Shown here in pieces: positions 4,453-35,942 of a stretch of 36,083 nt of DNA (the stretch's first letter is position 1; every line of letters begins with the position of its first letter). This DNA is from Deltaproteobacteria bacterium (lineage in GTDB: Bacteria > Desulfobacterota > GWC2-55-46 > DRME01), in the NCBI GenBank assembly GCA_011375175.1, contig DRME01000050.1:1-36083 (forward strand). The letters run 5' to 3'. A program made the translations under genes and the position numbers. Under the pieces are notes generated by a model. The model saw only the letters and a program-made list of their open reading frames with translations. It ran no database searches and was not told the DNA's origin.

Positions 4453-4579
4453 GCGGGCGTTGTTGATAGCTGGGTCTCGCGCAATGGAAAGGGTGTGAAC
4501 CCCGTCAGGTCCGGAAGGAAGCAGCGGTAGCACCTCGGCCCATGTGCCGCGAGGGTGCCTAGCTATCAACAGCGCCCGC
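4453..4579 (+). ncRNA. ffs: Signal recognition particle RNA (small bacterial type)
   Basis: The universally conserved SRP domain is present: GTCAGGTCCGGAAGGAAGCA with the GGAA tetraloop, followed by GCAGC and the return strand. The ends pair over a long helix: GCGGGCG (4453-4459) with CGCCCGC (4573-4579), then TTGATAGCT with AGCTATCAA. The pairing extends a little further out (CTTTT with AAAAG), so the precursor helix may be longer than the limits given. No Alu domain is evident, as expected for the small form. It precedes dnaX. Confidence 0.95.
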
Positions 4580-20001: not shown

Positions 20002-20030
20002 TTGACAGCGGCCGCTTATTTTCATAAAAT
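20002..20030 (+). promoter_or_regulatory. Strong sigma-70 promoter of the tRNA-Met operon
   Basis: TTGACA (20002-20007), a 17-base spacer, then TAAAAT (20025-20030). Transcription should begin near 20037, about 70 bases before the tRNA. The preceding bases AGTGC match those before the consensus promoter at 25346. Confidence 0.8.
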
Positions 20031-20106: not shown

Positions 20107-20182
20107 GGGCCCATAGCTCAGTTGGAAGAGCCACCGGCTCATAACCGGTCGGTCCCTGGTTCGAGTCCAGGTGGGCCCACCA
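20107..20182 (+). tRNA. tRNA-Met(CAT)
   Basis: The acceptor GGGCCCA (20107-20113) pairs with TGGGCCC (20172-20178), followed by A and an encoded CCA. The anticodon stem-loop CCGGCTCATAACCGG gives CAT. The fully paired position 1 argues against initiator tRNA; elongator tRNA-Met is likeliest, though tRNA-Ile2 (lysidine-modified CAT) cannot be excluded by eye. The last A of CCA is also the A of an ATG beginning the next reading frame. Confidence 0.93.
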
Positions 20183-21694: not shown

Positions 21695-22100
<406 letters not shown>

Positions 22101-24670: not shown

Positions 24671-25108
24671 ATGAGAAGGCATATAACGGCAATTGCGGTG
24701 CTCCTGGTACTTGCCGCATCGACGACCGTCTTCGGCGACGGGGGGCACAATCTCTGGAGGACGATAAAGCCTGCCGCGCCGGACAAGTTTCTCGTCTACG
24801 AGTCCACCATCGTACCCTGGCTCCAGCATGAGTTCTCCCGTGCCGTCGATATCCATCCCACCGGTATCGTAAAGCGCGGGCTCGTACGCTCCGATCTCCT
24901 CCGTTACGAGAATATAAACGGCCAGAACCGTTATAACGTCCATATCGAATACAGGGTATTCATAAGGGACGCAAGCGGTGTGGAGATATCGGGTCTCAAG
25001 GGCCAGGAGATAGTCTTTCTCGTAAGCGACGGCGCCATAAAGGACTACTTCCCCTTCAACGAGTACTGGATCGAAGGGGTGGTGCTCCAGGAGGGCGACT
25101 TCTACTGA
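24671..25108 (+). CDS. Small exported protein of unknown function
   Basis: The 145-residue product starts MRRHITAIAVLLVLAASTTV, a signal peptide with likely cleavage after VFG. The mature part is about 122 residues, beta-rich and aromatic (RYNVHIEYRVFIRDA, IVFLVSDGAIKDYFPFNEYW). No family is recognised. AAGGGGGTG six bases upstream supports this ATG; an in-frame GTG nine bases earlier is possible. It is followed by a strong hairpin, so it is probably the end of its transcript. Confidence 0.65.
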   Translation: MRRHITAIAVLLVLAASTTVFGDGGHNLWRTIKPAAPDKFLVYESTIVPWLQHEFSRAVDIHPTGIVKRGLVRSDLLRYENINGQNRYNVHIEYRVFIRDASGVEISGLKGQEIVFLVSDGAIKDYFPFNEYWIEGVVLQEGDFY

Positions 25109-25121
25109 TCTCCATGCCATC

Positions 25122-25167
25122 GGTGGCGGCGCCTCCTTGCGCACGGACGCAAGGAGGCGCCGCCACC
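25122..25167 (+). terminator. Terminator-like hairpin without T run
   Basis: A perfect 20-bp stem, GGTGGCGGCGCCTCCTTGCG (25122-25141) with its complement (25148-25167), has a six-base loop. It lies 14 bases after the stop at 25108. The following bases are TCTTCCG, so a classical U-tract is lacking; it may stop or stabilise the upstream mRNA. Confidence 0.55.
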
Positions 25168-25319: not shown

Positions 25320-25345
25320 AGCCGATCCTCCCTGTAACAAAGTGC

Positions 25346-25374
25346 TTGACAAGAACATTCATCTGCTGTATAAT
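25346..25374 (+). promoter_or_regulatory. Perfect-consensus sigma-70 promoter
   Basis: TTGACA (25346-25351), 17 bases, then TATAAT (25369-25374): both hexamers and the spacing are ideal, in a locally AT-rich stretch. The predicted start is near 25381. No credible ORF follows for more than 500 bases, which suggests that it makes an untranslated RNA or a long leader for the gene at 25914. The overlapping TATTAT on the other strand could serve the divergent peptide. Confidence 0.85.
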
Positions 25375-25380
25375 ATAACA

Positions 25381-25477
25381 CAATTTATTAAAACAATTGC
25401 GGGCCGTTCTGCTTGCGTTTCGGTGAGTGCAGAGCCCTATCCGTAAGGGAGCTGTGTCCCGGCAGGGGCGCAGCTCC
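25381..25477 (+). ncRNA. Candidate structured non-coding RNA
   Basis: Downstream of the consensus promoter the sequence can fold. GGG...TCTGC (25401-25414 area) pairs with GCAGAGCCC near 25428-25437, CCCTATCCGTAAGGG forms a small hairpin, and GGAGCTG...CAGCTCC (25448-25477) closes a third stem with an inner CCC/GGG. It has no ORF and no recognised family signature. It might instead be the leader of the prophage-side transcript. The 3' end is undefined because repeat R8 begins immediately. Confidence 0.35.
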
Positions 25478-25716
25478 TCTATGGAGACTCTGATTTGTCG
25501 CACCGGGGGAACCTGTATGTAAGAGGGTCGCAGACCCACCGTTCCCTCGGACTCCTTCCAGAAACTTTTAATGCTTTCGGACTTTCCTGATTTTGCTTGC
25601 AAAACCAGGAAAGTCCGAAAGGGAGCGGACGTCTTTGAAGGGGGGCTTGGGGGAGCGCGGGCCTGTGGCCCTTCTACGGAAAGCTTCCCCGGCGTAGTCA
25701 ATCAGGGCTTCCCTGT
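25477..25716. repeat. Composite hairpin repeat, copy R8
   Basis: A complete end-C-A-C-end element of 240 bases. The left end is GGAGACTCTGATTTGTCGCA. Module C has GGGGGAACC...GGTTCCCTC-like arms with inner GGGTCGCAGACCC. Module A has a 16-bp stem (25574-25589 with 25606-25621) and the loop TTTTGCTTGCAAAA. The flank GTCTTTGAAGGGGG leads to a second C (GGGCCTGTGGCCC) and the right end TAGTCAATCAGGGCTTCCC. The A stem is unrelated to those in R1, R5 or R7. Confidence 0.85.
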
Positions 25717-25837: not shown

Positions 25838-25852
25838 GTGCATATTATGCAC
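25838..25852. promoter_or_regulatory. Perfect 15-base palindrome, candidate operator
   Basis: GTGCATA-T-TATGCAC is a perfect inverted repeat with a one-base centre. It contains TATTAT, which could act as a -10 box with TTGTCT (25822-25827) upstream, though the 15-base spacing is short. It lies 60 bases before the gene at 25914 and resembles a repressor site. Confidence 0.45.
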
Positions 25853-25913: not shown

Positions 25914-26180
25914 TTGTCTGACTCCAGAAGGATAGATGCCGACAACTTTTACGGAAGCCTCGACGGCGAGGGGGTGGAGCTTCGCGAGCTGCTCTGGCCC
26001 CTCGCGGAGCTGACGCCGAGGGAGAGGGCCGTCTTCGTGGAATACCACTACTGGAAGACCCATATGAAGGTCGTGGCCGCAAGCCACAGAATATCTTTAG
26101 GGAGGGCCTATGAAATCCTCTACAGGGCGGAAGAAAAGATCGCGACTTCAAGGGCACAGAAAGAGGCGCAGAAGCATTGA
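25914..26180 (+). CDS. Sigma-70 region 4-like DNA-binding protein
   Basis: The 88-residue product (from a TTG with AAGGGG eight bases upstream) begins (M)SDSRRIDADNFYGSLDGEG. It then reads ELTPRERAVFVEYHYWKTHMKVVAASHRISLGRAYEILYRAEEKI, which has the layout of sigma region 4: L-T-P/x-R-E-R, a Y-W segment, then a helix-turn-helix. Such phage proteins control late transcription or packaging initiation. The frame is open further upstream to 25737, but that part covers repeat R8 and is not gene-like. A 15-base palindrome precedes it. Confidence 0.6.
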   Translation: MSDSRRIDADNFYGSLDGEGVELRELLWPLAELTPRERAVFVEYHYWKTHMKVVAASHRISLGRAYEILYRAEEKIATSRAQKEAQKH

Positions 26181-26376: not shown

Positions 26377-26403
26377 ACCGCCGCAGAGGGCGAAGACCGT
26401 GAA

Positions 26404-26442
26404 GCCCCCTCCCGCGCACCGCGCGGGAGGGGGCTTTTTTTT
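26404..26442 (+). terminator. Intrinsic terminator
   Basis: GCCCCCTCCCGCGC (26404-26417) pairs perfectly with GCGCGGGAGGGGGC (26421-26434) over a three-base loop, followed by eight T. This is the best intrinsic terminator in the window and separates the regulatory genes from the packaging genes. Confidence 0.95.
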
Positions 26443-26608
26443 GCCTCTTGCGGCTTGCGGCCGTTGCAGGGACGGGGCGGGAGTGTTGCGGGGGTAGAAT
26501 AAAAAAGCCGCTTTTTCCCTGTACTGTCGGGACCTTATGAGAGAGGGGGTAGAAAAAAAACACCATATCATGAAGTTCGAGCAAACCGAGACAAGGAGGT
26601 GCGGGCTT

Positions 26609-26818
26609 ATGGGCAACTACGACGGCGGTTTCCTCCACGCAGGAGAGGCGGAGGACTGGCTGCGCCACCATCCCAAGGGCAGGGAACGGGTGCTGCTCAG
26701 GGGGCCTGAGCGCTGTGAAGAGTGCGGCCGTGTCTACCTGAGTCTCTACAGACTCAGGGGATGCGTCGATCACGATGGACTCGAAAGGCTCGACGGCGGA
26801 AGGGGCTGCGACGTTTGA
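26609..26818 (+). CDS. Small Cys/His protein, possible zinc finger
   Basis: The 69-residue product starts MGNYDGGFLHAGEAEDWLRH at an ATG preceded by AAGGAGGTG, the best ribosome site nearby; two earlier in-frame ATGs (26537, 26570) are less favoured. RCEECGRVYLSLYRLRGCVDH supplies C-x2-C and C-x2-H, a plausible zinc knuckle. No family is recognised. It sits between the terminator and the terminase small subunit, where phages often carry small DNA-binding or HNH-related proteins; no HNH motif is seen. Confidence 0.6.
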   Translation: MGNYDGGFLHAGEAEDWLRHHPKGRERVLLRGPERCEECGRVYLSLYRLRGCVDHDGLERLDGGRGCDV

Positions 26819-26890: not shown

Positions 26891-27334
26891 TTGGCTATAG
26901 AGTGGCGCAGAGTCAGGGATGAGTATGAAAGGGAAGGGCTCGGCTTCGAGACCCTGGCCGGGAGACACGGATGTAAGGCCGAGACCGTGCGAAGGCGGGC
27001 CCGCAAGGAGGGCTGGACCAGGCGCGTCGCTCCAGGCGGGGCCCCGCCTTCCAACGAGGACATCCTCGAGGAGTACAGGAGACTCTGGCGTGACGTGAAG
27101 AGCACGCTCGTGAGGGCCCTCAAGAGGAGCGACGCCAAGCACCGTCTCGACGAGCTCAAGGCGGCCAAGCTCGCGGGCGAGATCGTGGCCACCATAGTAA
27201 AGGGCGAGAGCCGCCTGTGGGGGCTGGACGAAAACCTCTACAAAGAGCTTTTGAGTGAGAGCGACGAGATTGCCGCCCAGATGGAAGGCCTTACGGTTTC
27301 ACAGGGAGCAGCACAGGCTCTGGACGGAGAATAG
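26891..27334 (+). CDS. Putative terminase small subunit
   Basis: The 147-residue product starts at a TTG with GAGGGTG upstream. The N-terminus, AIEWRRVRDEYEREGLGFETLAGRHGCKAETVRRRARKEGW, is a clear helix-turn-helix of the type that recognises pac/cos sites. A helical oligomerisation region follows (LKRSDAKHRLDELKAAKLAGEIV). The gene overlaps the large subunit by about 80 bases. Family identity rests on the fold and position, not on a diagnostic motif. Confidence 0.7.
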   Translation: MAIEWRRVRDEYEREGLGFETLAGRHGCKAETVRRRARKEGWTRRVAPGGAPPSNEDILEEYRRLWRDVKSTLVRALKRSDAKHRLDELKAAKLAGEIVATIVKGESRLWGLDENLYKELLSESDEIAAQMEGLTVSQGAAQALDGE

Positions 27335-28523
27335 GCGCTTCAAGGTCGTCGCGGCCGGCAGGCGCAGCGGCAAGACCGAGCTCGCCAAGCGCAGGCTCGT
27401 CGTGGCGCTCACCGAGCGGAAGCCGTGGCCCGATCCCCGCTACTTTGCGGCCGCTCCCACCCGCGAGCAGGCAAAACGCATCTTCTGGAAGGACCTCAAG
27501 GCCCTGGTGCCGCGCCGATGGACGGCGCGCGTCTACGAGAGCGAACTCTGCATCGTCACGCACCTTGGCTCCGAGCTCTGGGTCGTGGGACTCGACAGGC
27601 CGGAGAGGATGGAAGGCACTCCCTGGGACGGCGGCGTGCTCGACGAGTACGCCGACATGAAGGCCGATGTCTGGAGATCGAGCGTGCGGCCCGCGCTGTC
27701 GGACCGGCAGGGCTGGTGCTGGTTCACAGGCGTGCCCGACGGTCTGAACCACTTCAAGGACCTCGCCGACTATGCGCGCAGCTCAGGGGACCCGCTGTGG
27801 GGCTACTACCACTGGCCCTCTGCCGATATACTCCCGGCCGAAGAGGTCGCCGCCGCCCGCCGCGACCTCGACGAGAGGACCTTCCGCCAGGAGTACGAGG
27901 CGAGCTTCGAGGTGGCGTCGGGAAGGGTCTATTATCCCTTCGACAGGAGCCTGCACGTGGACGACACCGTGGAAATCGACGCCCGCCTTCCCATATGCCT
28001 GTGCTGCGACTTCAACGTCGACCCCTGCGTCTGGGAACTGGCGCAGACCGACGGTGCGATGGTCCGGGTCTTCGACGAGGTGGTGCTGCGCGGGACGAGC
28101 ACAATGGAGATGGGGCGGGAAGTACTCGCCCGTTACGGCGGCCACGCCGGGGGATTCCGCGTATACGGAGACGCCGCAGGGAGCGCGAGGAGTACGACCG
28201 GCGCAACCGACTACGCCATCCTCGCCGAGCTCGGCTTCACGGACCAGAGGGTCGCGCGCTCCAACCCCGCCGTCAAGGACAGGGTCAACACCCTGAACGC
28301 CATGCTCAGGAGCAGCAGCGGCGAGGTGCGGCTGCGGATCAACGGACGCTGCCGCATGCTGGTGCGCGACCTCGAGACGGTGTGCTGGAACGGCGACTCC
28401 ATGGACCTCGACAAGAGCGAGCGCGACAGGACACACGCTTCCGACGCGCTCGGCTACTTCCTCTGCCGCGAATTCGCCCCGCGGCGCTTCAGGCCGGACA
28501 GGGGCGGGAGGTTCTACAAATGA
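27255..28523 (+). CDS. Phage terminase large subunit
   Basis: The 422-residue DNA-packaging motor has Walker A GRRSGKT (35-41), a coupling region FAAAPTREQAKRIFW, Walker B GVLDEYAD (D130, E131) and motif III-like CWFTGVPDG. The nuclease domain has acidic clusters at CCDFNVDP, VYGDAAGSAR and RTHASDALGYFL. It cuts concatemeric DNA and pumps it into the prohead through the portal. The start is uncertain: GTG at 27255, or a TTG at 27270, both inside the small-subunit gene. The stop overlaps the portal start (ATGA). Confidence 0.92.
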   Translation: MRATRLPPRWKALRFHREQHRLWTENRRFKVVAAGRRSGKTELAKRRLVVALTERKPWPDPRYFAAAPTREQAKRIFWKDLKALVPRRWTARVYESELCIVTHLGSELWVVGLDRPERMEGTPWDGGVLDEYADMKADVWRSSVRPALSDRQGWCWFTGVPDGLNHFKDLADYARSSGDPLWGYYHWPSADILPAEEVAAARRDLDERTFRQEYEASFEVASGRVYYPFDRSLHVDDTVEIDARLPICLCCDFNVDPCVWELAQTDGAMVRVFDEVVLRGTSTMEMGREVLARYGGHAGGFRVYGDAAGSARSTTGATDYAILAELGFTDQRVARSNPAVKDRVNTLNAMLRSSSGEVRLRINGRCRMLVRDLETVCWNGDSMDLDKSERDRTHASDALGYFLCREFAPRRFRPDRGGRFYK

Positions 28524-29887
28524 CGAAGAAGCAGCTCCTCAAGACCCACCCCGACTACGATGCGAACATCGATTCCTGGGTCTTTTTCCTCCACTCCTAC
28601 TTCGGAGGCAACCTCTACAGGTCGGGCGGATATCTCGTGCGCCATCCCTTCGAGAGCGCCGCCAACTACGAGCGGAGAAAACGCATAAGCTACTACTACA
28701 ACTACTGCGGTCCCATAGTGGACATCTTCGTGTCGCATCTGTTCAGGCGCAAGGCGGTGCGCGACTTCGGGAGCCTCACCGGCGACCCCCTCTTCGAGCG
28801 CTTCCTGAGAAACGCGGACCTCGAGGGTTCGTCGTTTGCCCAGTTCATGCGCGACGCCCAGCGTTTCGCCTCCATATACGGCCGCGTGTCGATAGTTGTG
28901 GACAAGCCGCCGCTCGAGGCCGCGACGATGGCCGAGGCCGTGGAGCGCGACCTGAGGCCCTACGTGACGCTCGTGACGCCGGAGAACCTCCTTGACTGGT
29001 CCTACGTGCGCGAGCCCACGGGACGCACGGTCCTCGACGCGGTGAAGATCCGCGAGGGCCGGGATCTCTACCGCATATGGAGCCGCGGCGGCTGGGAGCT
29101 CTGGCGTCTCGAGGCGAAATCGAGTGATGCCGTGCTGGTCGACGCCGGCGAACACCCCCTCGGCGAGGTGCCGGTGGTGAACCTCTACAACAAGCGCTCG
29201 GGCACGGCAATGGTAGGCGTCTCGGACCTCCAGGACATAGCCGACATCAACAAGAACATCTACTATCTGTGCAGCGACGCAAAGGAGATAATCGAGAACA
29301 CCGCCTTTCCCATGCTGGCCGTGCCCTACGGTCCGGGCGTCGACGAGCAGGAGGTGGGACCGCGCAACATCCTGGGGTTCGACCCCTCGGAGCCCAACTC
29401 GCGCCCCTACTGGCTCGAGCCCCCTCATTCCTCGTTGACCGAGATACGCGAGTGGGTCCGCCAGGACATAAACGAGATCCACAGGATAGCCAAGATGGGG
29501 GGTGTCAAGGCCACCGAGGACTTCGGCGGTGTGCGAAGCGGCGTGGCCCTCGAGCTCGAACACCAGCAGCTCCACGCCCTCCTGAGCGAGAAGGCCGACA
29601 ACACGGAACACGCCGAGAGCTCCCTTCTCGAGCTCTGGGCCCGCTGGCAGGGCGTAAGCTTCGACGGCCGCATAGACTATCCCGACGACTTCTCGGTGCG
29701 CGACCTCGACCGGGACCTCGACGTCGCCATAAAGGCCCGTTCCGCCGCCGTGGCCTCGGAGACCTTCAACCGCGAGATCGAAAAGAAGATCGTCAGGGCG
29801 GCCCTGCCCAAGCTCGACGAGTCCGTGATGAAGACCATCGTGGCCGAGATAGATGGCGGAGACGGGAAGACAAGGAGTGAGAAGTGA
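28520..29887 (+). CDS. Phage portal protein
   Basis: The 455-residue protein follows the terminase with a 4-base overlap. It shows portal features: an N-terminal helical region (YERRKRISYYYNYCGPIVDIFVSHLFRR), a beta wing (YVTLVTPENLLDWSYV and DLYRIWSRGGWELWRL), GEVPVVNLYNKRSG, the helix VSDLQDIADINKNIYYLCSD, and a long C-terminal helix (GVALELEHQQLHALLSEKADN). It resembles SPP1 gp6-class portals. It should form the ring through which DNA enters the capsid. Its stop overlaps the next start (GTGA). Confidence 0.85.
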   Translation: MTKKQLLKTHPDYDANIDSWVFFLHSYFGGNLYRSGGYLVRHPFESAANYERRKRISYYYNYCGPIVDIFVSHLFRRKAVRDFGSLTGDPLFERFLRNADLEGSSFAQFMRDAQRFASIYGRVSIVVDKPPLEAATMAEAVERDLRPYVTLVTPENLLDWSYVREPTGRTVLDAVKIREGRDLYRIWSRGGWELWRLEAKSSDAVLVDAGEHPLGEVPVVNLYNKRSGTAMVGVSDLQDIADINKNIYYLCSDAKEIIENTAFPMLAVPYGPGVDEQEVGPRNILGFDPSEPNSRPYWLEPPHSSLTEIREWVRQDINEIHRIAKMGGVKATEDFGGVRSGVALELEHQQLHALLSEKADNTEHAESSLLELWARWQGVSFDGRIDYPDDFSVRDLDRDLDVAIKARSAAVASETFNREIEKKIVRAALPKLDESVMKTIVAEIDGGDGKTRSEK

Positions 29888-30153: not shown

Positions 30154-30249
30154 GAGGCTCTGGGGGGGCGCTCAACCCGCAGCGCTCCCTTTTCGTGGCG
30201 GGGTCTTGAGATGCGGGGAGACTGGAGAGAAAACCGAGGAGGTAGCGAG

Positions 30250-30906
30250 ATGACGCAGGTTGACGAACCGAAAACGGCTCACAGGGGCGGCGGCCCTGAA
30301 GAGGGAGGCGCATCGAGGGAGCATGGCCGGGTGGAGTTTTCGCCCGAGCAGCAGCACAAGGTGCAGGAGCTCATCGACGAGGCCTACAGACGGGCCTTTG
30401 CAAAGGCCCGCTCGGCGAAGACGACCTCCGAGGAGGTCGCCGAGATGAAAAAGGAGATAGAGCGGCTCAGGAGGGAGAAGAGGCGCGCCGCCGTCATGAG
30501 CGCCGTCTCGCGTCGTGACGTGGTCGATGCGGACGAGGTGGCATCGCTCATCGCTCCCCACGTGAGTGAGGGACCGGGCGGCGAACTCTACGTCGAGGAC
30601 GGAAAGAGCGGCGGCGTCCCCCTGGGCGAGTACGTAGACCGCTGGCTCAGCGAACGACCGCACCACCTGAGGGCCCGCGGCGCCGCGGGCGCAGGCTCGG
30701 GCGGAGCGAGGTTCGCCGAGGCGCGCCGTCGCTACGACCTCTCGGACCACACCGTCTGGCGCAATATGCCGCGCGAGGACTTCGAGAGGTTCATGGCCGA
30801 AGGGGTGAGCGTCCAGGGGGCTTCGGGCAGGAGCTACACCTTCAAGGACGTGAAGAACCCTTTCGTCCAGGCGCGCCGCATGAGACGACAGCAGCAAGGA
30901 GGATGA
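30250..30906 (+). CDS. Putative capsid scaffolding protein
   Basis: The 218-residue product has a strong ribosome site (GAGGAGGT six bases before the ATG). It has a disordered N-terminus, a charged coiled coil (VQELIDEAYRRAFAKARSAK then EEVAEMKKEIERLRREKRR), and a basic C-terminus ending VQARRMRRQQQGG. Small acidic/basic coiled-coil proteins directly upstream of the capsid gene are typically scaffolds. The middle contains VVDADEVASLIAPHV and ELYVEDGKSGGVPLGEYV, a pattern often seen in such proteins. The frame runs 39 bases further upstream, but without a ribosome site. Confidence 0.65.
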   Translation: MTQVDEPKTAHRGGGPEEGGASREHGRVEFSPEQQHKVQELIDEAYRRAFAKARSAKTTSEEVAEMKKEIERLRREKRRAAVMSAVSRRDVVDADEVASLIAPHVSEGPGGELYVEDGKSGGVPLGEYVDRWLSERPHHLRARGAAGAGSGGARFAEARRRYDLSDHTVWRNMPREDFERFMAEGVSVQGASGRSYTFKDVKNPFVQARRMRRQQQGG

Positions 30907-30912
30907 TCCCAC

Positions 30913-31776
30913 ATGGCTAACGAGGTAACCACGGCGGCCGCGAGCGCGGGAGAGCTCGTGGCCGCGGAGATAGTGTCGAGGCTCGTCATAGACGCGGCCT
31001 ACGGCGAGGCGGTGATGCCGCCCCTTGTGAGGGTGGCCGACATAAGCGACGAGAGCACCCTTACGGTGGAGTTCCCCAAGTGGCCGCTGCTCAGCGCCTC
31101 GGACCTCACCGAGGGGACCGACGCGGGCAACACGGCGGTGAACACCACCTCCGTATCCGTCACGGCCGACGAGGCCGGCATCATGATAACGGTGACGGAT
31201 ATGCTGTTGAACAGCACGGGGTTCGGCGGACTCGAACCCTACGCCCGTGAGCTCGGCAAGGCCCTGGCGAACAAGATCGACGCCGACCTGCTCGCCGAGG
31301 TGGGCGACTTCACCAATACGGTGGGAGCCACCGGCGTGGACATGAGCGAGGCCGACTTCCTCTCGGCGATCTACACCCTCGAGAGCGGCAACGCCAAGGG
31401 GCCTTTCGTCTGCGTGCTCCATCCCATCCAGGTGAGCGACCTGCGGACGGCGCTCTCGAGCACCACGGGGGCCATATGGGGCGGGCCTTCGGCTCCGGCG
31501 GCGGACCTGGGGGCCTTTGCAAGCCTCTACGGCATCGACGTCTTCAAGAGCACCAACTGCGCTTCCGTCAACACAGGCGCGGACCGCCAGGGCGTGATGA
31601 TGCCGGCGGGCAACGGCTCGGGCCTCGCCTACGTGCTCAAGACCGGTGCGAGGACCGAGTTCCAGCGCGACGCGTCGCTCCGGGCAACCGAGATCGTCGT
31701 CACCGCCGTCTACGGCGACGAGTGCGTCAACCCGGAGGCCGACGGCGGCGTGGCCATCGTGACGGACCACGAGTAG
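30913..31776 (+). CDS. Phage major capsid protein (HK97-like)
   Basis: The 287-residue protein starts MANEVTTAAASAGELVAAEI seven bases after the scaffold stop. A long first helix is followed by VEFPKWPLLSASDLTEGTDA and a strand-rich P domain (TTSVSVTADEAGIMITVTDML). An A-domain part follows, KGPFVCVLHPIQVSDLRTAL, then VFKSTNCASVNTGADRQGVM and a C-terminal strand ARTEFQRDASLRATEIVVTAVYG. This is the usual order for small HK97-fold capsids. Two strong hairpins follow the stop. Confidence 0.85.
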   Translation: MANEVTTAAASAGELVAAEIVSRLVIDAAYGEAVMPPLVRVADISDESTLTVEFPKWPLLSASDLTEGTDAGNTAVNTTSVSVTADEAGIMITVTDMLLNSTGFGGLEPYARELGKALANKIDADLLAEVGDFTNTVGATGVDMSEADFLSAIYTLESGNAKGPFVCVLHPIQVSDLRTALSSTTGAIWGGPSAPAADLGAFASLYGIDVFKSTNCASVNTGADRQGVMMPAGNGSGLAYVLKTGARTEFQRDASLRATEIVVTAVYGDECVNPEADGGVAIVTDHE

Positions 31777-33408: not shown

Positions 33409-35061
33409 GTGGCAACCGAAGTCGTCAAGACGGTCAAGGCCTCGGGCGGCGACTATACTTCCCTTGCCGCCTGGGAGGCCGGCGAGCAGCGCGACCTGGT
33501 GACGGCCGACGAGATAGCCGTCGCCGAGTGCTACGCCTTCACCGACACGAGCGCGCCCGTCACCATAGCGGGCGCATGGACGGTCGATTCGACGCGCTAC
33601 GTCCATATCCGCGTGCCCGCGCCGGAGCAGCACAACGGCGGCGACTGGTCCTCCGGGCCCGGAGGGTACACGCTTCTTCGCAACGCCAGCTGGAGCGTCT
33701 GCCTCGAGGTCGACGCCCCCTACACCAAGGTCGACGGCGTCTATGCCACGACCACGGGTGCCAACAGTAACGGCTTTCGCGTGGACGCCGACAACGTGGT
33801 CTTCAACCGGTGCATCGCCGAGAACACGAGCGGCGCGCCCGGCACTTCGGCGCAGGGATTCACGTGGCTGTCGGCGGGGGGCGCAAACACCTTTGCGGCC
33901 CGTAACTGCATCGCCAGGGGTTTCTACTACAACTTCTACCCCGCCACCGACGGTACCGAGATATCCAACTGCACGTCCTACGGCGGCGAGTACGGTGTCT
34001 TCAGGGCCGGCAACGCTCCGGTGGTGCGCAACACCATCGCCGTCAGCGCGAAGACCGCTCCCTTCGAGGTCAACGGCGGGTCCTGGGGCGCCGGCACGGA
34101 CCACAACCTCTCGGACACGGCCACGGCCACGGGCGGCGCAAACGACCTGACGAACAAGTCTGCGGCGAACCAATTCGTCTCCGTCACGTCGGGCTCGGAG
34201 GACCTCCATCTCAAGAGCACGGCAGACGCCGTCGGCGCGGGAGCGGACCTCTCGTCGCTCTTCACGGACGACATCGACGGAGACACGCGCTCCGCGCCCT
34301 GGGACATGGGGGCCGACGAGTACGTGAGCGCCGGCGGCGGCGTGACGGTCACGCCGGCGGTCGCGGCCGCGGCGGGGAGCGTGCCGGGCGCCTCCGTGGC
34401 CGGCGGTGCGCTCGTGGGAAGCGCGGCCCGGGCCGCCGCCGCGGGTGTGGCTGCTCCGGCGGTCACGGGCGGAGCGCTCATCGGGGCGGGCCCGGCGGTC
34501 GCGGCCACGGCTGCGGCGGCCGCCTCGGTCAGCGCCGGGGCGGTTGCGGCCCCGGCGCGCCATGGTGTCTCGACCTCGCCCCAGGCGCCCGGCGTGTCGG
34601 GTGGAGCGCTGGTTGGTGCAGGGCCCGTGGCTTCCGCCGCCGCGGTCCAGGGTGCCTCGGTCAGCACCGCCGGCGGCGTGACGGTCACGCCGGCGGTCGC
34701 GGCCGCGACGGGGAGCGTGCCGGCCGCCTCCGGTGTTGGCGGTGCGCTCGCGGGAAGCGCGGCCCGGGCCGCCGCCGCGGGTGTAGCTGCTCCGGCGGTC
34801 ACGGGCGGAGCGCTCATCGGGGCGGGGGGCTGGAGCGCTTCTGCGGCGGTATCGGCGCTCACCCTCTCTACATCGGCCGTAGTCACGGCGGCGCTGTGGG
34901 ACGCCGTGACCGCGGTGAAGAGGCCTTCGGTCTTCAGCCCGGCGTCCGGCGGTTTCATACCGACGGCGTCGCCGTACGCTCCCGCGTCCCGTGTGGTGAC
35001 CGGGCGGAATGAATCGAGGGTCGTCGTCGGGAAGAAATCCATGAAGGCGGTGAAGAGATGA
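33409..35061 (+). CDS. Beta-helix fibre-like phage protein with Ala/Gly-rich stalk
   Basis: The 550-residue product starts at a GTG with GGGAGG nine bases upstream. Residues 1-305 read as a right-handed parallel beta helix (GFRVDADNVVFNRCIAENTSG, FAARNCIARGFYYNF, EISNCTSYGGEYGVFRAGNAPVV), ending DDIDGDTRSAPWDMGADEY, a common closing motif in such proteins. Residues 310-475 are a very Ala/Gly/Val-rich region with two copies of a 52-residue repeat. The C-terminus (RVVTGRNESRVVVGKKSMKAVKR) is basic. It may be a fibre, spike or surface-binding protein. Confidence 0.65.
   Translation: MATEVVKTVKASGGDYTSLAAWEAGEQRDLVTADEIAVAECYAFTDTSAPVTIAGAWTVDSTRYVHIRVPAPEQHNGGDWSSGPGGYTLLRNASWSVCLEVDAPYTKVDGVYATTTGANSNGFRVDADNVVFNRCIAENTSGAPGTSAQGFTWLSAGGANTFAARNCIARGFYYNFYPATDGTEISNCTSYGGEYGVFRAGNAPVVRNTIAVSAKTAPFEVNGGSWGAGTDHNLSDTATATGGANDLTNKSAANQFVSVTSGSEDLHLKSTADAVGAGADLSSLFTDDIDGDTRSAPWDMGADEYVSAGGGVTVTPAVAAAAGSVPGASVAGGALVGSAARAAAAGVAAPAVTGGALIGAGPAVAATAAAAASVSAGAVAAPARHGVSTSPQAPGVSGGALVGAGPVASAAAVQGASVSTAGGVTVTPAVAAATGSVPAASGVGGALAGSAARAAAAGVAAPAVTGGALIGAGGWSASAAVSALTLSTSAVVTAALWDAVTAVKRPSVFSPASGGFIPTASPYAPASRVVTGRNESRVVVGKKSMKAVKR
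34335..34490 (+). repeat. 156-base direct repeat, copy 1
   Basis: This begins CGGCGGCGTGACGGTCACGC and recurs 336 bases downstream with few changes. It encodes GGVTVTPAVAAAAGSVPGAS and onward to TGGALIGAG in the fibre-like gene. 336 is a multiple of three, so frame is preserved. Confidence 0.9.
34671..34826 (+). repeat. 156-base direct repeat, copy 2
   Basis: This is the second copy of the stalk repeat. Residue changes against copy 1 cluster in its first half (AAAAG to AAATG, PGASVA to PAASGV), while the second half is the same in protein. Recombination between copies would remove 112 codons cleanly. Confidence 0.9.
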
Positions 35062-35942
35062 AGCAGCAGTTCCTTGTCGGCATGGCCGGAACACTGAGAA
35101 CCCATGTCTACGAAAACAACAGAAAAATAGTACCCTCCTCCGCCACCGTGACCGTATACAGGCCGTCGAGTACCGATAAGCTCGTGGACGCGGCGGCCAT
35201 GAGCATAGGCGCGGACGGACTCCTCTCTTACGGCCTGAGCGCCGGGGACAACTCGCTCGCCGCCGTCGACTACAGGGCGGTGATCTCCTACGTCCACGAC
35301 GGCGCCTCCTACGAGTTCACCCTCTTCTACGACGTGGTGCGCTCAAAGCTCGTCAAGGTCATAACAGACGACGATCTCATCGCCGAGCTGCCGCAGCTCA
35401 GGGACGCGGGCTGGAAGGTCACGGGCAAGGCCCAGGGCGGATCGACGACGACCATCGTGGACGCCGGGCTCAGACGTTACGGAGACGACTATTTCACCGG
35501 CGGGCTCGCCTACTCGGTCGACAAGGACGAGACCCGCGCCGTCACGGCCTTCGACGCGGCGAGCGGAACGGTCACGGTGGAGCCGTTCTCCGCGGCGATC
35601 ACGACCGACGGCTACGTACTCACCCGCTCCTACACGGCCGAGATAGACCGGGCCTTCGAGAAGATCGAACAGCGGCTTTCGGGGCTCGGCGCCAGGGCGT
35701 CGCTCATCCTCGACCCTTACGACCTGCGGGAAGTTCATATATACCTGGCCGTCGCCGAGGCGTGCAAGGGCCTCGTGATGGACGACGGAGGGTTCTGGTG
35801 GGAGATGTGGCGGACCTACGAAAAGAAGGCCGACGAGGCGTTCTCCACGCTCCGCTTCAAGTACGACTACGGTGACGACGGCGTCATATCGGGCGGGGAG
35901 ACCGCCTCGACGTACAGGACCGTGAGGGCTGCAAGGAGATGA
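35058..35942 (+). CDS. Phage protein, possible head-tail connector
   Basis: The 294-residue product begins MKQQFLVGMAGTLRTHVYEN at an ATG overlapping the fibre-gene stop. The N-terminal 95 residues look like a beta-sandwich (VTVYRPSS, YRAVISYVHDGASYEF). ITDDDLIAELPQLRD begins a middle segment with VDAGLRRYGDDYF. The C-terminal third is helical (RAFEKIEQRLSGLG, VHIYLAVAEACKGLV, RTYEKKADEAFSTLRF). The helical end is like head-tail adaptor proteins, but no diagnostic motif is seen. It overlaps the next gene by four bases. Confidence 0.6.
   Translation: MKQQFLVGMAGTLRTHVYENNRKIVPSSATVTVYRPSSTDKLVDAAAMSIGADGLLSYGLSAGDNSLAAVDYRAVISYVHDGASYEFTLFYDVVRSKLVKVITDDDLIAELPQLRDAGWKVTGKAQGGSTTTIVDAGLRRYGDDYFTGGLAYSVDKDETRAVTAFDAASGTVTVEPFSAAITTDGYVLTRSYTAEIDRAFEKIEQRLSGLGARASLILDPYDLREVHIYLAVAEACKGLVMDDGGFWWEMWRTYEKKADEAFSTLRFKYDYGDDGVISGGETASTYRTVRAARR

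Follow-up and report, generated by a model that had tools for sequence, protein, structure and literature searches.

The stretch of DNA analysed here (36,083 nt, hereafter the window) carries a perfect-consensus sigma-70 promoter, PE, upstream of two small overlapping genes, sig4 and ORF2, which head a terminase-portal-capsid-tail cluster of about 15 kb (Table 1). The pair is followed by a small Cys-containing ORF (Cys-ORF), the terminase subunits TerS and TerL, portal, a scaffold-like protein, capsid, tail tube, tape measure, more tail genes and an M15 peptidase. The window's contig ends inside the cluster, and contig C129 of the window's genome carries the remainder (tail tube, tape measure and more). 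G009, a complete genome, has the cluster between pth-HPPase-ychF and lpxC-phoH, a ychF-lpxC placement that is common to several genera, whereas the window's own family differs in having tmk downstream. In G009 and G022, the conserved ORFs of the ychF-lpxC interval, not all of them identified, included no recognisable integrase or replication gene. Elsewhere in the window, Rfam models identify an SRP RNA at 4468-4567 and an RNase P RNA at 21701-22098, and a perfect 20-bp inverted repeat at 25122-25167, just past a gene ending at 25108, is perhaps a bidirectional stop before the element.

Table 1 Features of the control region and the downstream gene cluster, with positions in the window unless a locus is named.
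Feature	Position	Strand	Remarks
Operator-like inverted repeat O1, GTGCTTGACAAGAAC	25342..25356	+	overlaps -35 box
Early promoter PE, TTGACA-17-TATAAT	25346..25374	+	12/12 consensus bases; kept across order
Structured 5' leader RNA	25397..25478	+	predicted fold: branched stem 25397-25446, perfect 14-bp hairpin ~25447-25478
Dispersed ~235-bp MITE-like repeat R8	25480..25714	.	matches across own genome, both strands
Operator-like repeat O2, GTGCATATTATGCAC	25838..25852	+	~60 nt before sig4
sig4, 88-aa sigma-70-region-4-like regulator	25914..26180	+	TTG start; weak profile matches
ORF2, 88 aa	26110..26376	+	arginine-rich conserved N-terminus RLQGHRKRRR; alignment A5, 20 sequences
Strong intrinsic terminator T2	26401..26443	+	between regulatory pair and structural genes
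Tandem box 1, GGGGGTAGAATAAAAA	26490..26505	+	paired boxes in relatives
Tandem box 2, GGGGGTAGAAAAAAAACACCATATCAT	26545..26571	+	candidate late promoter or activator site
Small Cys-containing ORF (LLREPERCxEC..SLY)	26609..26818	+	nearly all loci; start inferred from AAGGAGG
Terminase small subunit	26891..27334	+	PHROG 1206, E 4e-5
Terminase large subunit	27255..28523	+	PHROG 2, E 2.5e-37
Portal protein	28520..29887	+	Pfam SPP1_portal; homologue PHROG 145, E 1.7e-71
Scaffold-like protein	30211..30906	+	conserved position before capsid gene; role inferred
Major capsid protein	30913..31776	+	Pfam Phage_capsid_4, E 2.3e-6
Conserved gene g11	35058..35942	+	cluster continues on contig C129
Second promoter with -35 repeat	L266 (G017:C116), L265 (G007:C108)		ahead of 62-aa protein

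The similarity of the sig4 product to sigma-70 region 4 is weak but consistent. It matches Pfam Sigma70_r4 with an E-value of 0.002 and 17.9 bits against a curated cut-off of 24.1, as well as the NCBIfam models sigma70-ECF (1.5e-4) and 'positive control sigma-like factor' (0.02), both below their curated cut-offs, and a Foldseek search ranks sigma chains at the top, all with E above 1 and none significant. ORF2, whose predicted fold is of low confidence (pLDDT 62), overlaps sig4 by 71 nt (26110-26180) in another frame, and a similar out-of-frame overlap is seen in relatives. Strong conservation in both frames of the overlap may account for the SLGRAYEILYRAEEK stretch being so highly conserved. 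Three genomes keep sig4 and ORF2 with the structural part largely or wholly lost (G025, locus L100; G028, L112; G006, L133), and from such genomes without structural genes a separate role of the pair is possible.

A strong intrinsic terminator is found directly after ORF2 in 35 of 37 loci, compared with 39 of 148 shuffled sequences. Between T2 and the next gene sit the tandem GGGGTAGAA boxes, a pair of direct repeats (GGGGTAGAATAAAA and GGGGTAGAAAAAAAACACCATAG) whose spacing is conserved across the order: in 33 of 40 loci it amounts to 54-55 nt. The boxes may represent a late promoter, activator sites or RNA signals.

Promoter PE and its operator-like repeats

The PE hexamers, TTGACA at 25346-25351 and TATAAT at 25369-25374, are separated by a 17-nt spacer and agree with the consensus at 12 of 12 bases, just as a preliminary description of this DNA had stated. 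Its remark that such a promoter is a rarity is equally borne out, PE being the only TTGACA-16/18-TATAAT pair on either strand of the 36 kb window, against 0.0005 expected from hexamer counts. A TTGACA-17-TAAAAT sequence (11/12) at 20002-20030, about 75 nt before the tRNA-Met at 20107, is probably the promoter of that tRNA. When the best sigma-70 site within 650 nt upstream of sig4 was scored in 39 loci of the same order, 34 of them carried a site with at least 11 of the 12 consensus bases (12/12 in 23 loci, 11/12 in 11), while 4 of 1170 dinucleotide shuffles reached 11/12 and none reached 12/12. The preliminary description had called this a promoter with no gene; relatives, however, keep the same promoter upstream of the gene at 25914, i.e. 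sig4, at a distance of mostly 130-360 nt and up to about 490 nt, compared with 580 nt in the window. Because the promoter stays upstream of that gene across the order, the other option raised at the time, that of a leader of this regulatory gene, is the right one, and the comparison strongly supports PE as a conserved promoter at which the control operon of a phage-derived cluster starts, rather than an orphan promoter.

The long leader of the window's genome is the only one to contain R8, a repeat already noted after the stems and now recognised as a dispersed MITE-like element. At least 40 copies were scored in its own genome (454 first-look candidates, with query positions 41-275 matched); the ends of the repeat are imperfect (GGAGACTCTGATT / AATCAGGGCTTCC), and it matches itself on both strands. 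The idea that the insertion of R8 had split a canonical terminator from its U-run was dropped because the repeat ends at 25714 and neither edge is followed by a U-run.

In many relatives the -35 box is framed by an inverted repeat, GTGC-TTGACAA-GCAC, which takes the form GTGCTTGACAAGAAC in the window. Exact GTKC-N7-GMAC is present at the -35 box in 15 of 36 leaders, with one mismatch in 4 more, and within the last 130 nt before the gene in 18 of 36; the 39 upstream regions together hold 23 occurrences of the strict form GTGC-N7-GCAC, compared with an expectation of 0.22. Genera g10, g20, g27 and most of g17 lack the -35 repeat or have a poor version of it, though the promoter is kept there. 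The repeats, at the -35 box and before the gene, look like operators. In G007 and G017, an order-wide search for GTKCTTGACANGMAC recovered another perfect promoter, away from the sig4 locus, that also carries the -35 repeat, and the 62-aa protein encoded behind it was found in four genomes only (also G001 and G019). A trans-acting factor is therefore likely, as the repeats recur on a second promoter elsewhere, and the locus of the 62-aa protein is a possible second target of the same regulator. Searching the window's whole genome for GTGC-N7-GCAC was unspecific and gave fewer matches than the reversed control.

The leader RNA

The stretch after the promoter was previously described as not coding, and indeed no plus-strand ORF of at least 60 aa runs across 25375-25570. 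The leader (25381-25482) has a predicted minimum free energy of -47.2 kcal/mol (z = -4.8), with 1 of 200 shuffles folding equally well. The three stems reported earlier cannot all coexist because CCC at 25436-25438 and GG at 25449-25450 would each be used twice; the predicted fold consists of two domains, a branched stem and then a perfect 14-bp hairpin. Using 25340-25520 as a BLAST query against 38 genomes of the order, we obtained informative matches confined to the first 35-54 bases, that is, the promoter plus the bases just after it. For the stem region, matches to these 38 relatives were at chance level only, and the stem sequences are kept in none of them. No Rfam family, 6S (RF00013) included, matches at 25380-25480, no tRNA or tmRNA was detected at the promoter and leader, and the 6S RNA of the window's genome lies on another contig (G000:C45).

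These results bear on two alternative views of the leader. The site had been put forward as a candidate new small RNA, and the strong fold, the perfect promoter and the ORF-free stretch all speak for an independent trans-acting RNA of about 95 nt, starting at 25381, to which the neighbourhood of sig4 would be incidental. However, two of the checks suggested along with that proposal turned out against it: Rfam models gave no match at the site, and the homologue search left the leader stems without a conserved counterpart in 38 relatives, although the promoter is kept in most of them. In addition, the last stem lacks a following U-run and the promoter holds its place before sig4 in other genomes, and we regard an independent small RNA as very unlikely. 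A better case can be made for an attenuator, in which most transcripts would end early as a short leader RNA and an antitermination factor would gate read-through into sig4. Leader terminators are predicted in 23 of 36 loci compared with 34 of 144 shuffles, the leaders of g10, g17, g20, G029 and G037 combine a strong hairpin with a U-run, and attenuation would fit the explanation favoured below as an additional layer. On the other hand, 24% of the shuffles also pass, the g10 leaders show little covariation, with one pair changed on both sides and too few changes for a signal, and the window's own leader contains no strong terminator, just a weak hairpin (-8.5) before a U-run. Going by these predicted structures, a short leader RNA could arise by premature termination, and we hold attenuation to be a tentative possibility, well short of the favoured reading.

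Descent of the cluster and a proposed two-stage switch

Of the order's 48 genomes, which are metagenome assemblies, 40 carry sig4, normally as a single copy; among the good assemblies the count is 29 of 33. The phylum's 381 remaining genomes have no sig4. Of 24 splits, 19 are common to the tree built from TerL, portal and capsid and that of RpoB, while label shuffles share at most 2. In close pairs, dN/dS lies between 0.04 and 0.45 for nearly all cluster genes, with one Cys-ORF comparison reaching 1.08, and for most pairs the dS of the cluster falls within the range seen for ychF beside it. The nearest phage TerLs are at most 45% identical. In IMG/VR, six contigs carry a TerL at 58-65% and other viral TerLs do not exceed 46%; since four of the six also carry the element's boxes or the Cys-ORF motif, which none of the more distant ones do, these contigs appear to be the element itself. 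Four of the criteria for a gene transfer agent (GTA) are seen in the cluster: tailed-phage genes, one-copy vertical inheritance, purifying selection and a lack of recognised integrase and replication genes. The site had been placed at a prophage edge, which is correct as to position, but the block is a GTA-like element passed on by vertical descent.

Were the cluster an ordinary active prophage family restricted to the order, and PE the switch to its lytic cycle, the head, packaging and tail genes and the repressor-like operators would be accounted for. This is rendered rather improbable, however, by the presence of one copy in almost every genome, the tree congruent with RpoB, the ychF-lpxC location fixed in several genera and the unseen integrase and replication genes, as well as by the IMG/VR comparison, where the TerLs at 58-65% come with the element's boxes where these are covered and all others stay at or below 46%. 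Another view would see the repeats as LexA boxes and the element as an SOS-induced prophage remnant, an inverted repeat over the -35 box being typical of LexA control. We consider this extremely improbable, as the lexA genes of the order have a different upstream repeat, GGGTAACA-NN-TGTTACCC, and no lexA is detectable in the window's genome; GTGC-N7-GCAC, which is not the repeat upstream of the order's lexA, was rejected as a LexA/SOS operator. The LexA box of the order was seen at loci L138-L151, and several families, the window's included, are without detectable lexA. Finally, the particles might be killer or defective ones, like PBSX of Bacillus, rather than transfer agents. PBSX likewise has a sigma-like positive control factor, Xpf, and the weak match of sig4 to the NCBIfam model of that description points the same way, while a holin-like gene in G025 with a weak match to GTA_holin_3TM (E 0.004, below cut-off) points towards GTAs. 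These observations do not separate the two kinds of particle, of which we hold the PBSX-like one to be rather unlikely.

We regard it as likely that the site comprises the early promoter and leader of a sig4-ORF2 operon of a domesticated GTA-like prophage, vertically kept in this order of uncultured 'Deltaproteobacteria'. The cluster is probably a new kind of GTA; like all functional conclusions here, particle production and the trans-acting factors are inferred from comparison. On balance, we lean towards an undescribed GTA family, exapted once in the order's ancestor, kept in nearly all families and run by a self-contained two-stage switch. In order to rationalise such a switch, we propose that a repressor on the GTGC-N7-GCAC sites keeps the intrinsically very strong PE off. 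Once the repressor leaves, the housekeeping polymerase would transcribe the leader and the overlapping sig4 and ORF2, and transcription from PE would then halt at the terminator after ORF2. The sigma-region-4-like Sig4 and/or its arginine-rich partner ORF2 would subsequently enable the polymerase either to pass T2 or to start at the tandem boxes 55 nt apart, leading to expression of the packaging, head and tail genes and to particles that would most likely be gene transfer agents.

Very few gene transfer agents are known to date, the best studied being those of Alphaproteobacteria, and no GTA from this order is described in the literature searched, which was largely open-access. If the proposal is true, an order-wide, vertically kept GTA outside their phylum would add one more independent instance of phages becoming host-controlled particles. 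Because the control region is short and strongly conserved, the switch, with its repressor sites, terminator, sigma-like activator and late boxes, would be open to reporter assays in a common laboratory host, though the bacteria themselves are uncultured.

Comparison with known systems

Our comparison covers the GTA of Caulobacter, RcGTA, BhGTA and BaGTA and extends to phage late activators. In general terms, Sig4 may be likened to Xpf of PBSX and to the late activators of the RinA/ArpU type in phages, as a small sigma-region-4-like protein encoded just before the terminase genes, although its profile similarity is only weak. As with RcGTA and its activator GafA in Rhodobacter capsulatus, the system is phage-derived and host-kept, with an activator of local sigma-like DNA-binding similarity, although Sig4 has just 88 aa and GafA is a larger, multi-domain protein (PMC9638019). 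In a phmmer search of PDB sequences, a capsid homologue matched 9m66 Gp6 only and no RcGTA chain; a distant relationship is possible. By description, the element can also be likened to BhGTA (Brachyspira) and BaGTA (Bartonella), as an independent exaptation of a tailed phage that has descended together with its host (PMC9662315).

The closest described circuit is that of Caulobacter, to which the proposed switch bears a likeness in design. There, RogA represses gafYZ at inverted repeats in the gafYZ promoter and GafY acts as an activator (PMC9632790, PMC11150451), while the GTA promoter contains an inverted repeat to which GafZ binds; GafZ has a sigma-like HTH and antiterminates past a terminator after the first GTA gene (PMC11150451, PMC9632790). 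As in the Caulobacter crescentus GTA, the regulatory operon is small, its core promoter carries repressor-type inverted repeats, and one of its regulators has a sigma-like HTH, predicted for Sig4 and described for GafZ; a terminator early in the structural cluster and a cluster size of about 14-15 kb are further common points. Unlike in Caulobacter, the regulatory pair directly heads the structural cluster, the repeats read GTGC-N7-GCAC rather than GGAA-N4-TTCC, and a perfect-consensus early promoter is combined with tandem GGGGTAGAA boxes 55 nt apart in a host of another phylum.
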